Origin: Peribacillus loiseleuriae | GTDB lineage: Bacteria > Bacillota > Bacilli > Bacillales > DSM-1321 | NCBI RefSeq assembly: GCF_001183985.1 | Contig: NZ_LFZW01000001.1 | Span: forward strand, 4,493,621-4,557,620 | Direction: 5' to 3' | Length of the DNA stretch: 64,000 nt | Shown: positions 7,902 to 62,936 of the stretch, one piece after another | Layout: each line of letters opens with the position of its first letter | Numbering within the stretch: the first letter of the stretch is position 1 | Position numbers and translations under genes: made by a program | Notes under the pieces: model-generated | Database searches by the model: none | Seen by the model: only the letters and a program-made list of their open reading frames with translations | Told to the model about the DNA's origin: nothing

Positions 7902-8200
7902 ATAGCCTTTAGCCCCCTTGTAAAATAATATGTAAACTCTAGTTCTTCACCAAAACATGTACTTGACGGAACTGTTCTATGTTTTGCTCATTGTAACAAC
8001 CTTAATAAATTCCTTTATTTATAACAAGTTGGATTTCATGGGCAAAGTTGTTTTTAGGTCAAGAACAGACTTGGGTGTTGAGCCACTATTCTATCTCATC
8101 TTATTTTACACGTTTTAACAGTTTTAGGGCATTTGGAATGATCTTTTACTCCCATTCACTACTTTCCAGTGTGAGTGGTGTTTCGGCTCGCGACTTGCTT

Positions 8201-8254
8201 ATAAAGTGAAACTTCAATCAGTGGGGGTTTTACTGCCCGTTCATGTGGGATAAA
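8201..8254 (+). repeat. R1 repeat, short form
   Basis: A 54 bp copy with exact ATAAA at both ends (8201-8205 and 8250-8254). It starts ATAAAGTGAAACTTCAATCA, continues with GTGGGGGTTTTACTGCCCGT, and ends GTGGGATAAA. It lies in the 489 base gap between two minus-strand genes, opposite to their direction. The rest of that gap holds nothing else that I recognise apart from the terminator at 8343. Confidence 0.85.
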
Positions 8255-13192: not shown

Positions 13193-13489
13193 GATGACCA
13201 CTCCTTCTGTATTCTTAATTATAGCGAATTTTTCAGTCTGTTTCGAATAATTCCTCCCTGTTCCTAGCACAGGCTTGAAGTTTATGTGATTAGCTTTTAG
13301 TATATAAGGATAAAGATAAGAAAAGTATAGAATCATCTCACTACACATGATACATCATCTATTTTTTTCGGGTGAAACTCAAATACAGTGCAGGTATAGA
13401 ACCATTTTAGGGGAATATAGAAATAAGGATACATCTTAACTACCATATTAAAATTGAATACACATTTTGTTTGAAGGACATGGGGACGG

Positions 13490-13685
13490 GGCTTCGTGGC
13501 TTACTCATATAACCAATCTACTCAGCAGGTATACTGATTTTATCGAGAAAGCATCCAAAATCCGGCTTTGCACCACCACCATTGTGATTAAGTGAGTGTA
13601 GCGTGCTATAGAATGAAGCCTTCATGGTAAATGGTGGCGTTTTAACGCCATATTCGTTTTGTATGAAAAAGTACTCTTTGAAAAG
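13490..13685 (+). repeat. R3 repeat, copy a, upstream of yuiD
   Basis: About 190 bp matching the copies at 22085, 35465 and 51342. Landmarks are GGGGACGGGGCTTCGTGGC, CAGGTATACTGATTTTATCG and AGAAAGCATCC, the CCACCATT...AATGGTGG stem, then TGGCGTTTTAACGCCA and TTTTGTATG. It ends about 20 bases before yuiD and has the same orientation as that gene. The rest of the 508 base gap after pepA shows nothing else. Confidence 0.8.
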
Positions 13686-15158: not shown

Positions 15159-15270
15159 ATAATCCTCTCTCCTCCTACACCATATATTTCTTTCCCGAAC
15201 GGAAATGAAATATTCATGTAAGAAGAAAAAGCTTGATCAGCTATCACCTTAACTAGGCATCAGACATTGC

Positions 15271-15303
15271 AAAAACAGGATGCCCCAAAGGACAGCCTGT
15301 TTG
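15271..15303 (-). terminator. Terminator of yuiB
   Basis: AAACAGGCTGTCC and GGGGCATCCTGTTT pair with two mismatches, followed by T-rich sequence on the minus strand directly after the yuiB stop. Confidence 0.75.
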
Positions 15304-16269: not shown

Positions 16270-16561
16270 CTCTCACTCACTCCTTGAACAGGTTATCCTA
16301 TCCTTATTGTAATGCTCATCACACAATGTGAAAAGGAATACAAAAACATTGTGAGACAGTTATGAAAGATTCTCTTAATCAAGAGAAATGTGTAAAGTTT
16401 TACATCCACTCTACCTTTTTCAGGAAAAACATTCCTAAAAAAGACATTTCACTTGTACTTTTCATGCAATTTTATGTTTTTCTAGATAATTTCCCGAACA
16501 TTCCATCTATATTATGTAATTATCATGCTGTCCTTTCCTCATTTTATGTTAAAATACTATC

Positions 16562-16712
16562 ATAAAGTGAAACTTCCATCATGGGGATTCCACCACTGAT
16601 GGTTAGTTGAACCAATCGGGGATTTACAGGCTGTTTACCCCCCACCCATATTTATCTTGATTCTTGCATGAAAATTGAGGTGGGGTATTACAGCCGGTTA
16701 AACCGGGATAAA
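16562..16712 (+). repeat. R1 repeat, full-length form, upstream of yumC
   Basis: A 151 bp copy with ATAAA at both ends (16562-16566, 16708-16712). It contains stem 1 (CCATCA.TGG with CCACTGATGG), the linker GGTTAGTTGAACCAATCGGG, then a long stem 2 (GGCTGTTTACCCC with GGGGTATTACAGCC) enclosing an A/T-rich loop, and the tail GGTTAAACCGGGATAAA. It ends 30 bases before the yumC start, same orientation, so it probably forms the yumC leader or promoter. The 290 bases before it (16270-16561) show no gene. Confidence 0.88.
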
Positions 16713-19156: not shown

Positions 19157-19275
19157 GAGGGTGTCCATAACAAAAGGGTCAGACCCCACATCTCCTATAT
19201 CTCGTTTATATGACATGTACATGACACAATGAACGAGATATAGAGTGTGAGGTCAGACCCTTTGGGACATCCTCT
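19157..19275. repeat. R2 palindromic repeat between DUF2225 gene and yuzB
   Basis: A 119 bp copy. Outer inverted repeats are GAGGGTGTCC and GGGACATCCTC; inner ones are AAAGGGTCAGACCCC and GAGGTCAGACCCTTT; the innermost are ATATCTCGTT and AACGAGATAT. It lies between converging gene ends, consistent with a bidirectional terminator. Confidence 0.85.
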
Positions 19276-20976: not shown

Positions 20977-21099
20977 GAGGGTGTCCCATAACAACAGGAT
21001 CAGAAACCCCGCAACCCAAAAATACAATTCATATTAAGCGTAGGTGCTATTATGAACGATGTATAGAGTGCGTGGTCAGATTCTTTTGGTACGCCCTCT
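20977..21099. repeat. R2 palindromic repeat between yutJ and yuzD
   Basis: Outer arms GAGGGTGTCCCATAAC and TTTTGGTACGCCCTC, inner motif TGGTCAGATTC. It lies between converging gene ends. The arms are more diverged than in the 19157 copy. Confidence 0.78.
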
Positions 21100-21530: not shown

Positions 21531-21704
21531 TGTTCAAAAAGAAGGGTAAAAAGAGCCGAGAAGTTCTAGGGGTTAGCCTCTAATATTCCCATATTCTGTA
21601 ACGTATGAGGATTAGGCTTCCACAAGCCGTGCCAAAGTTTAACAGAAGGTCATTAATGTGCTTCGATGCAATTCGCAAGCTTTTTTACCGGACTTTTTGA
21701 ATTG
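21531..21704 (+). repeat. R4 repeat, copy 1
   Basis: Starts TGTTCAAAAAGAAGGGTAAA and then AAGAGCCGAGAAGTTC; ends GATGCAATTCGCAAG and TTTTTTACCGGACTTTTTGA. The two ends are inverted repeats (TTCAAAAAG and CTTTTTGAA). The reverse complement of the 45684-45834 region has the same beginning and end, with a different centre. No gene in it. Confidence 0.75.
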
Positions 21705-21737
21705 CCACTATAATCTTTCCGATGGATTTTTTCATAG

Positions 21738-22028: not shown

Positions 22029-22077
22029 TAAAAGCTGACACCTCTGCATTGCGCATAAATGGTAGTCAGCTTTTTTA
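22029..22077 (+). terminator. Terminator of yutI
   Basis: AAAGCTGAC and GTCAGCTTT with a long loop (25 bases) containing further pairing, followed by a T-run. Confidence 0.8.
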
Positions 22078-22084
22078 TTGGATG

Positions 22085-22256
22085 GCTACTATTCAGCCAA
22101 TCCACTTAGCAGGTATACTTATTTTGTCGAGAAAGCATTCCTAAATTCCAGCTCCACACCGCCACCATTATGATTAGGCGAGTGTAGTGTGATAAATGGT
22201 ACATCCTTCATAATAACTGGTGGTGTTTTAACACCATTCAGATTTTGTATGTTCAT
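22085..22256 (+). repeat. R3 repeat, copy b, overlapping the thrB 3' end
   Basis: About 170 bp. Landmarks: CAGGTATACTTATTTTGTCG, the stem CCACCATTATGA with TCATAATAACTGGTGG, then TGGTGTTTTAACACCA and TTTTGTATG. Compared with copies a and d, several changes are compensatory (GGCG/CGCC becomes GGTG/CACC). Its last 29 bases lie inside the thrB frame. Confidence 0.85.
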
Positions 22257-30643: not shown

Positions 30644-30757
30644 AAAAAGGCTGCTTTGTAACGAAAGGGTCAGACCCCAACATCTCCTATATATCGTTTA
30701 TATGACAATAAACGGTTTAAAGAGTGTGAGGTCTGACCCTTTTTGAACAACCTCTTT
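30644..30757. repeat. R2 palindromic repeat between the DUF3905-like gene and yutD
   Basis: Inner arms AAAGGGTCAGACCCC and GAGGTCTGACCCTTTT, with the outer part AGGCTGCTTTGTAAC and TTTGAACAACCTCTTT. The centre contains ATATCGTTTATATGAC and AATAAACGG, as in the 19157 copy. Confidence 0.83.
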
Positions 30758-31819: not shown

Positions 31820-31840
31820 CACCTTCATTCCAATTCAAGA

Positions 31841-31956
31841 GAGTATCCAAAAAGGGTCTGACACTACACTCTATACACCGTTTATTGTGTCTATTACACG
31901 TCAAATAAACGATTTATAGTCGAGTGGGGTCTGACCCTTTCGTTATAGGACTACGT
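31841..31956. repeat. R2 palindromic repeat between yutC and lipA
   Basis: Inner arms AAAGGGTCTGACACTACACT and AGTGGGGTCTGACCCTTT, with AAACGATTTATAG type centre. It lies between converging gene ends. Confidence 0.78.
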
Positions 31957-35464: not shown

Positions 35465-35690
35465 ATTTTCATACAAAATCTGTATGGCGTTATAACGCCA
35501 CCATTTACCATGAAGGATAAATCATGTACCACGCTACACTCACCTAATCACAATGGTGGCAGTACGAAGCTGGATTTGGGGGTACTTTCTATAACAAAAA
35601 TAAGTATCCCTGCTAAGTAGAGGGCTTATTAGTAATTCGCGAAGCCTTCGTCCCCACGTCCTCCATACAAAGAATTATGGCTTATAGATA
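35465..35690 (-). repeat. R3 repeat, copy c, upstream of the HD-GYP gene
   Basis: On the minus strand: GGACGTGGGGACGAAGGCTT, then a TATTTTTGTTATAGAAAG region, the stem CCACCATTGTGATTAGG with TTCATGGTAAATGGTGG, then TGGCGTTATAACGCCA and TTTTGTATG. It points to the HD-GYP gene, which starts about 40 bases after it. Confidence 0.8.
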
Positions 35691-41505: not shown

Positions 41506-41586
41506 TTTATTCCGGATTAACAGGCTGTAAATCCCCGATTGATTCAACTAACCATCAGTGGGAAATGTCTCCCTCTGATGAAAGTT

Positions 41587-45342: not shown

Positions 45343-45473
45343 AGTAATACCTCCGTGATCTAAATCCTATTTTATAGCTAGAAAGTAAGATACCTTCTTT
45401 TCTATGACCTTTAAAATGATTCTCACTTTATTCTCATTATAATCTTATATCAAATTTAAACTGGAAGCAACTA

Positions 45474-45584
45474 ATAAAGTGAAACTGCAATCAGTGGGGG
45501 CTTTCTTCATCCCCCACCCACGCTTTTTCGATTTCTCTAAGCCTTAAGATTGGAGTCTTACTGCCCGCTAAAGCGGTATATAGA
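45474..45584 (+). repeat. R1 repeat, 111 bp form, upstream of sufC
   Basis: Starts ATAAAGTGAAACTGCAATCA, continues GTGGGGGCTTTCTTCATCCC with CCCACCCACG, and ends CTTACTGCCCGCTAAAGCGG and TATATAG. Orientation is opposite to sufC. The right end is degenerate. Confidence 0.8.
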
Positions 45585-45683
45585 TGCTTTTCTACTATAA
45601 GGATAGTGTTTTCCTATTTATATTGCAAGTGAAGCCCGTCTCTTGAATCTTCCTACAAGCACCTCATTATTTTCCCCATAAAA

Positions 45684-45834
45684 GAGGATTTTCAAAAGGT
45701 CCGGTAAAAATAGCTATCGAATTGCATCAAAACTCTGTCTCTCCAGTCCTCACGTATTACTGCATACGCGCAGCTCTAGAGACAATCACTCCTCGAACTT
45801 CTCGGCTCTTTTTATCCTCCTTTTTGAACAAGCT
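45684..45834 (-). repeat. R4 repeat, copy 2
   Basis: Reverse-complemented it runs GAGCTTGTTCAAAAAGGAGG, then ATAAAAAGAGCCGAGAAGTT, a CTGCGCGTATGCAGTAATAC centre, then GATGCAATTCGATAGC and TTTTTACCGGACCTTTTGAA. The ends agree with the copy at 21531. Confidence 0.75.
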
Positions 45835-49446: not shown

Positions 49447-49558
49447 CTCTCATCTCCCAAAGCAATCCGCTTTGTGTGAATTGGCACCTTTTCAAAGCAA
49501 TTGCTTTGCCGGTTGCCGGGCTTCATCGGGCACATCCCTCCACCTCTCTTGATAAGAG
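49447..49558 (-). promoter_or_regulatory. SAM-I (S-box) riboswitch upstream of metNPQ
   Basis: On the minus strand, CTCTTATCAAGAGAGGTGGA opens the aptamer, GCCCGATGAAGCCCGGCAAC is the conserved core, GGTGCCAATTC the P3-P4 junction, and GATGAGAG closes P1. Followed by a terminator (49393-49430) whose 5' arm partly overlaps a possible antiterminator. SAM binding should turn off methionine uptake genes. Confidence 0.95.
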
Positions 49559-51128: not shown

Positions 51129-51138
51129 ATAAACTCTC

Positions 51139-51243
51139 CTTATCTTCCAGAGCTAAAACTCTGCTGGAATTAGCACCGTGTATGCGATACATACCGGTTG
51201 CCGGGCTTCGTAGGACCAGTTCCTCCACCACTCTTGATAAGAA
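51139..51243 (-). promoter_or_regulatory. SAM-I (S-box) riboswitch upstream of metY
   Basis: On the minus strand, CTTATCAAGAGTGGTGGAGG opens, ACGAAGCCCGGCAACCGGT is the core, GGTGCTAATTCCAGC follows, and GATAAGGAGA closes P1. Confidence 0.94.
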
Positions 51244-51341
51244 ATTAATTAAATTTTCGGTAAATTAAACTTTAAATAAATATATCATGAGCAATCATGC
51301 TCGTCAACTTCATTTTTACATTTCAATCACTGCTTTTTTAT

Positions 51342-51535
51342 GAAGGCCATAGGGACAGGTCTACGCGTCTTATTAATTTAACCAATCTGTTTAGCGGGTA
51401 TACTTATTTTATCGAGAAAGCATTCGAAATTCTAGCTCCGCACCGCCACCATTGTGATGAGGGGAGGGTAGTGTGATAAATGGTAGATCCCTCATCACAA
51501 TGGTGGCGTTTTAACGCCATTTAGGTTTTCCATTC
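51342..51535 (+). repeat. R3 repeat, copy d
   Basis: Landmarks: GGCCATAGGGACAGGTCTAC, CGGGTATACTTATTTTATCG, a perfect 18 bp stem CCACCATTGTGATGAGGG (51446-51463) with its complement at 51489-51506, then TGGCGTTTTAACGCCA. This copy has the best-paired main stem. Confidence 0.88.
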
Positions 51536-53311: not shown

Positions 53312-53376
53312 TTTCTCACCACCTATTGATAGAATACCCTTTTTTCAATAGCAATACAAAAGTTACAGCAACGAAA

Positions 53377-53440
53377 ATAAAATGGAACTTCCATAAGTGG
53401 GGTTTTTCATCCCCACTTATGGTTAGCTCCGTTCTACTGT
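53377..53440 (+). repeat. R1 repeat, 5' part with a perfect stem 1
   Basis: Starts ATAAAATGGAACTTCC, then CCATAAGTGGGG (53391-53402) pairing perfectly with CCCCACTTATGG (53411-53422), then GGTTAGCTCC. The 3' part is not recognisable. Stem 1 carries compensatory changes compared with the 16562 copy. It lies between yusI and the fadE 3' end. Confidence 0.8.
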
Positions 53441-62706: not shown

Positions 62707-62744
62707 ACAATCATATTTAATTAAATATTCCCATTCACCGATGG

Positions 62745-62912
62745 GATAGAGGCTGCAGTTTATAAGAGTAAAACGGACGAGATTCAATGAAATTCACGAC
62801 TCCGTTTGAAAGGATAAGTTGCCGAAGTTTGGATAAATCATTGAATATCCGGACTGGCGATGTTTTCGAATAGGAACATCACTGTCACGTTTATTAACGT
62901 GGAGAGCTATCT
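62745..62912 (+). promoter_or_regulatory. Lysine riboswitch (L-box)
   Basis: Conserved blocks in order: GATAGAGGCTGCAGTTTATA, AGAGTAA, GAAAGGATAAGTTGCCGAAG, ACTGGCGATG, GAACATCACTGTCACG and GTGGAGAGCTATC. These match the lysine class (AGAGG..GC, GCCGAAG, CTGGCA/G, ACTGTCA, GTGGAGxGCTA). Followed by a terminator. It controls the permease gene downstream, which indicates lysine as the substrate. Confidence 0.93.
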
Positions 62913-62936
62913 TCGGAAGGATTTAACGGACTTATC

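Follow-up and report, generated by a model that had tools for sequence, protein, structure and literature searches.

REP and REPIN sequences, with their RAYT transposases (TnpA-REP), and the PATEs of the IS200/IS605 family insert beside a fixed short target. Both groups of repeats are described as non-autonomous and as carrying a hairpin near the right end (PMC8266576, PMC6006769, PMC7290912), and a length of 20–40 bp is given for REPs (PMC3733652). In the B. cereus group, bcr1 (group A) is portrayed as a short intergenic repeat with dozens of mainly chromosomal copies, with features of a mobile element and with a repeated T-rich 5-mer, TTTAT (PMC6542083, PMC3446304); copies on plasmids are recorded as well (PMC6542083).

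R3, the repeat under study, resembles bcr1 in being mobile, intergenic, high in copy number and restricted to one group, a likeness by description, and TTTTGTA in R3 has the role that these accounts give to TTTAT in bcr1. R3 differs from bcr1 in its ends, which are TTTTGTATG and not TTTAT (the latter is present only inside the R3 consensus), in its host range, which among the genomes searched comprises three Peribacillus genomes only, and in having no match in 72,556 plasmids, whereas plasmid copies of bcr1 are described (PMC6542083). With the REP/REPIN-RAYT systems and PATEs it has in common its lack of autonomy, the hairpin near the right end and a position beside a fixed short target; however, it is longer than a REP (~193 bp compared with 20–40 bp, PMC3733652), its ends bear no similarity to the sampled Y1 and TnpB loci and it has no stable hairpin at the left end. 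Classical MITEs are likewise small, non-coding, high in copy number and mostly intergenic, but no terminal inverted repeats were found in the R3 consensus and exact target duplication was not seen at eight of ten sites. R3 is a new mobile repeat that is restricted to one clade and belongs to the bcr1 kind, although its core and host range are different. We put at about 0.86 the probability that it is a short (~193 bp), non-coding, non-autonomous mobile DNA element that is mobilised in trans and whose effects on neighbouring genes are incidental. The finding suggests that trans-mobilised repeats like bcr1 also occur outside the B. cereus group. No description of R3 was found in the literature on Peribacillus repeats, and it is called new on the strength of these searches alone.

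The window, that is, the whole 64-kb stretch of DNA that was analysed, contains four copies of R3, as the preliminary description had stated, and all four were recovered by a covariance model with 164–233 bits. Copy a (13465–13665, plus strand, 233 bits), copy c (35470–35672, minus strand, 202 bits) and copy d (51334–51534, plus strand, 206 bits, and 186 bits with nhmmer) are full length, the last with the cores TTTTTTATG and TTTTCCATT at its bounds. Copy b (22071–22251, plus strand, 164 bits) has lost its left end and is alignable from ~22091. Two copies had been said to end shortly before genes of the same orientation, and they do so at distances of 36 and 43 bases from the ATG: copy a precedes a gene whose protein matches PF02681, which we take to be the YuiD type, and copy c precedes an HD-GYP gene whose protein matches the HD domains PF13487/PF01966. 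At 15268–15275 (minus strand) the window has the vacant target TTTTTGCA, where the related genome G009 has an R3 copy. Two SAM riboswitches and one lysine riboswitch are also found in the window, at 49447–49558, 51137–51243 and 62739–62917.

The covariance model (R1) was built from 49 aligned copies. In the 5.43-Mb genome to which the window belongs (G000), it gave at least 90 matches at E ≤ 0.01 and at least 76 above 80 bits, with the best 150 of 1474 candidates scored, and a blastn search with copy a gave at least 45 listed matches, 44 of them substantial, with the best 40 of 87 candidates scored. The genome-wide search thus revealed many further copies in this genome and in two close relatives, and the family, which had not been recognised at the outset, corresponds to no Rfam family at the gathering threshold. 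Among 61 genomes, 36 of them from the genus Peribacillus including G000, high copy number (at least 40 matches each) was confined to G000, FJAT-29882 (G009) and P. huizhouensis (G029); a single weak match (40–45 bits) was obtained in each of three further genomes, and R3 was not found with the model in 55 of the 61. The YuiD-type protein of G000 has 94% identity with each of its counterparts in the nearest named relatives, ‘Paenibacillus sp. FJAT-29882’ and Peribacillus huizhouensis, and a search of 80 yuiD loci placed R3 copies in these two genomes only (seven matches at E ≤ 1). When 397 genomes of the order were searched under strict filters, with the best six candidates per genome scored, R3 was found only in G000 and, as a single weak match, in G021 (the results include neither G009 nor G029), and R1 had no match outside the genus. 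A 29-mer from the left end, allowing up to three mismatches, gave 38, 34, and 32 hits in G000, G009, and G029, respectively, and its reversed control gave none. R3 was not found in 50,697 phage records, and viral contigs had no match for one exact 29-base R3 pattern.

A diverged cousin of R3 is present as one match each in G011 and G021, where it precedes a gene identified by eye as proS-like. It is located at L054:1498–1642 and, in reverse, in L056, and the G011 and G021 sequences are 97% alike. L055:1540–1690 (G031) is a possible further cousin with the ends TATGAAGGAA and TTCCTTCATA, i.e. inverted.

Measured from each TTTTGTATG to the following one, the R3 unit is ~193 bp long, with head-to-tail copies having one core in common. 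The TTTTGTATG ends are direct repeats, and the target and the two element ends all bear TTTTGTA-like sequence. An inverted pair, ATGAAGGA near the left end and TCCTTCAT ~40 bp inside the right end, is paired in 89.1% of 366 cells, with covariation not above that of shuffles. Over 96 copies, conservation reaches 0.95 in AGGACATGGG, 0.92–0.96 in GGCTCCGCACCGCCACCATT and 0.94 in GAGTGTAGCG, and the lowest value among full blocks is 0.75, at positions 91–100. No reading frame is common to the copies, being broken by indels in the alignment as read by eye, and R3 is, to judge from its letters, non-coding.

Occupied and empty orthologous sites show that R3 is mobile, as ~193 bp beside a TTTTGTA-like target. 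The comparison covered 444 kb of G000, 460 kb of G009, and 331 kb of G029, which are largely collinear, and then a further 800 kb of G009. For 11 of 41 copies, a near-empty orthologous site (gap below 40 bp) was found in at least one relative. Among 96 copies, 13 were flagged as empty, 14 had an R3-length insert in the relative, four fell into other categories and 65 were without a usable ortholog in the compared sequence; inspection by eye resolved the 13 into eight simple sites, four array members differing in copy number, and one mis-hit. Because 14 of the 96 sites are occupied by an R3-length insert in a relative, the spread is partly old. Within the window, copy a is absent from the orthologous yuiD site in the close relative G009, and is therefore no conserved regulator at that site. 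G029 too has a copy at the HD-GYP site of copy c, and the orthologs of the copy b site in G029 and G009 contain shortened relatives or remnants.

The junctions were read by eye at ten sites, comprising the eight simple ones together with g9:88873 and g29:112362 (gaps of 23 and 18, respectively). Target and element core differ at positions 4–7 in nine of the ten, with g29A:161934 being uninformative. The left core carries the target's base in six of the nine informative sites, and the right core differs from the target in eight, where it has the element's base in five and is unclear in three. Three of the nine do not fit this rule: the right core is target-like at g29 L070, and the left core is element-like at g29 L058 and g29:112362, so that the relative's sequence at these two sites may differ from the real target. 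At the copy a site, position 3 of the left core resembles the element as well. Left and right cores are the same in two of the ten sites (g29 L058 and g29A:161934), as a duplication would give, and different in eight; a 5-bp duplication could account for g29 L070. With six of nine left cores target-like and eight of nine right cores off-target, exact duplication of the target is unlikely. Insertion on the 3′ side of a TTTTGTA-like target, with the right core borne by the element, is the preferred interpretation, supported but not settled by these sites, clean ones being few in number.

Four head-to-tail pairs are 94.5–99.0% identical, compared with a within-genome mean of 79.4%, and, as the members of these pairs are near-identical, the arrays appear to derive from local duplication or conversion. 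One pair between genomes, L059 (G009) and L005 (G000), is 96.0% identical. Nearly all copies (39 of 41) lie outside the ORFs of at least 80 aa called by a simple ORF caller; the gene on the 3′ side is co-oriented in 29 of 41, and its start is within 50 bp in nine. In co-directional settings, 20 of 28 copies point in the direction of transcription (p 0.036, in a sample largely from one part of the chromosome), a bias behind which replication or selection may stand. The minus strand is favoured 32 to 16 in the second half of G000 and no strand bias is seen in the first half (14 of 28); the overall bias toward the leading strand is weak (46 of 76, p 0.085, with strands tallied by hand, the terminus assumed at mid-contig and dnaA near the contig end).

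R3 had been introduced as a two-stem repeat with covariation. The perfect stem reported for copy d is present on the plus strand, where 51445–51463 pairs with 51489–51507 in the sequence and by pair counts, and its perfection is peculiar to a few copies, depending on the pairs 133-181, 136-178, and 140-167, which are standard in three, six, and three of 49 copies, respectively. In this register 80.0% of 920 cells are paired, compared with 79.9% in shuffles, and two cells are two-sided, compared with 2.8 expected. A bulged 13-pair register of the first stem is paired in 92.7% of 630 cells, with one two-sided cell where 1.0 is expected, and the terminal hairpin TGGCG/CGCCA near the right end of copy d (51504–51519, plus strand) is paired in 90.6% of 245 cells, with one two-sided cell and no covariation. 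Two-sided changes were at the level of shuffles in all four stem tests, such that the covariation does not survive in the 49-copy alignment, and this larger alignment goes against the original claim. The first-stem change in copy b, said to be matched in the partner arm, proved one-sided when read by eye (U-G to U-A and G-U to A-U). The second-stem change from GGCG/CGCC to GGTG/CACC is genuinely two-sided (C-G to U-A), but it is found in only one of the 49 copies. The imperfect stem is part of the family sequence and there is no sign of its upkeep by compensation across copies; a perfect stem in one copy and matched changes among four can, as a warning, vanish once 49 are aligned.

Folding was assessed for 96 copies, with 25 shuffles each, and proved hardly better than that of shuffled sequence. 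The mean z was −0.48 on the plus strand and −1.28 on the minus strand, compared with −1.53 for the left flanks, and values below −2 were obtained for 11 copies on the plus strand, 24 on the minus strand, and 36 of the 96 left flanks; copy d, with a z of −3.67, is an outlier among the copies. RNAalifold gave −2.1 kcal/mol for the R3 alignment with no two-sided change, and permissive Rfam searches with copies a and d returned implausible weak matches only. A structured RNA kept by selection was rejected on the stem tests, the folding z, RNAalifold, and Rfam, and it is very improbable that R3 is a cis-acting 5′-UTR regulator of this kind. Such a regulator would agree with the distances of 36–43 bp from copies a and c to their genes, with the nine of 41 copies that end less than 50 bp from a co-oriented start, with the frequent pairing of the bulged stem, with a terminator-like copy a (one found, compared with 0.1 in shuffles) and with the occupation of the HD-GYP site in two species. 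The absence of R3 from the yuiD site of G009 counts against it, as does the scan of two regions in which a promoter-like match was not found.

The 3′ arm of the copy d stem and the terminal hairpin overlap in bases, and consequently the two exclude each other in their full form. From this overlap and the terminator-like tail of copy a, R3 could be imagined as a mobile terminator/antiterminator switch: as the stem 122–134/170–193 and the terminal hairpin have columns 190–193 in common and exclude each other, an inserted R3 would render read-through conditional. The idea is barely credible, however, given that copy c scores no terminator, that the stems do not covary and that for most of the 41 copies no copy was found at the orthologous site.

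If R3 is, as preferred here, a mobile DNA element moved in trans, the supplied enzyme would attach it 3′ of the target core. One short crossover may then leave the target core on the left and place the element's own core on the right, without true duplication of the target; the junctions lend both steps moderate support. Arrays would grow or shrink by recombination or by re-insertion at the common core, and effects on neighbouring genes would be side effects. Either an HUH single-strand transposase or a site-specific recombinase would be compatible with the role of the enzyme.

Neither the mobilising enzyme nor an autonomous relative was found in the search with the left-end 29-mer or at the Y1 and TnpB loci. 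A long autonomous element with an R3 left end was rejected on the observation, made by eye, that all 38 left-end hits in G000 overlap R3 model matches, at up to three mismatches, so that a more diverged left end would escape; the hit at 3819579 overlaps only a 32-bit match and reads as a shortened R3/R3b-like copy. Y1 transposase matches number three, one, and four in G000, G009, and G029, several of them broken, and TnpB matches number ten, six, and zero, respectively. At ten Y1 loci (eight in the carriers and two in G011) no match to R3 or R3b ends was found at E ≤ 0.05, and the same holds for 16 TnpB loci, except for one ordinary R3 adjoining a TnpB. The RAYT loci L076, L080, and L081 bear GGGTCTGAC or GGGTCAGAC motifs and not R3 ends. 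RAYT, IS200, or TnpB as a partner by end similarity is therefore unsupported, there being no common ends.

These loci bear on one specific form of the preferred reading, in which R3 would be PATE- or REPIN-like and moved through single-stranded DNA by an IS200/IS605-type or RAYT (Y1, HUH) transposase. Such a system would be expected to place the element next to a short T-rich target, as is seen here, with most informative sites showing a right-end copy that the element itself carries (six of nine sites fit insertion 3′ of a fixed target without duplication and three do not), and the right-end hairpin, the Y1 genes in all three carriers and the weak leading-strand bias point the same way. The form is tentative and on balance doubtful, in view of the Y1, TnpB, and RAYT loci without R3 ends of their own, the lack of a TnpB match in G029 and the lack of strand preference over the chromosome's first half. 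Moreover, subterminal hairpins at both ends are a trait of IS200/IS605/RAYT elements, and a DNA fold of the R3 consensus ends gives a z of −2.92 on the right but 0.25 on the left, where no stable hairpin is formed. No paper was found in the literature that links IS200, TTTAT, TnpA, and Geobacillus stearothermophilus. Alternatively, R3 may move as a circle by means of a site-specific tyrosine or serine recombinase with TTTTGTAT as the crossover core. The same core on both sides, tandem units with one core in common and the lack of a clear duplication would follow naturally from a circle, but the core is short, and degenerate at the targets, and we regard this form as likewise doubtful.

R3 has a sister family, R3b, of ~134 bp (30 aligned rows, with one locus entered twice; an example row is L203:13585–13718), which has the modules GGGGnCGGGGCTTCGC and GCTCCGCACCGCCACC in common with R3 and a different right end. 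R3b is found in the same three of the 36 genus genomes, with at least 24 matches each, and the window contains no match to it at E ≤ 1e-6. Seven of 36 R3b copies were flagged as empty in a relative, and by eye they resemble joining at a run of T. Both families could be substrates of one unrecognised enzyme in a small Peribacillus clade, which would recognise GGGGnCGGGGCTTCGC and GCTCCGCACCGCCACC and insert elements devoid of inverted repeats 3′ of T-rich cores, leaving the target unduplicated, although a single enzyme of this description is unlikely. As two families with modules in common, found within the genus sample only in three related genomes, R3 and R3b make a tractable case for finding what moves such repeats.

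A further family, bounded by TTTAT, interrupts the central part of R3 in L254 and L250 and, with an altered start, in L252, all from the relatives. It starts with TTTATCCCG and ends with GTTTCACTTTAT, the TTTAT at both ends recalls bcr1, and a full-length match of 80% is found on a plasmid of Pseudalkalibacillus hwajinpoensis. Pieces of this nested family are located in the window at 521–551, 8198–8231, 16559–16592, 16593–16640, 16682–16712, 41514–41561, 45471–45504, and 53374–53407. The window also includes repeats with GGTCTGACC or GGTCAGACC, at 19226–19263, 21049–21086, 30705–30742, and 31837–31919; these motifs are paired around three RAYT-type genes (L076, L080, and L081) in the three carrier genomes and, because the pairs flank such genes, the repeats look like RAYT-linked REPs. 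Finally, an inverted repeat pair, TGTTCAAAAAG ... CTTTTTGAACA, with arms 79–91% complementary, is seen at 21531–21573, 21682–21714, 45678–45710, and 45788–45830.
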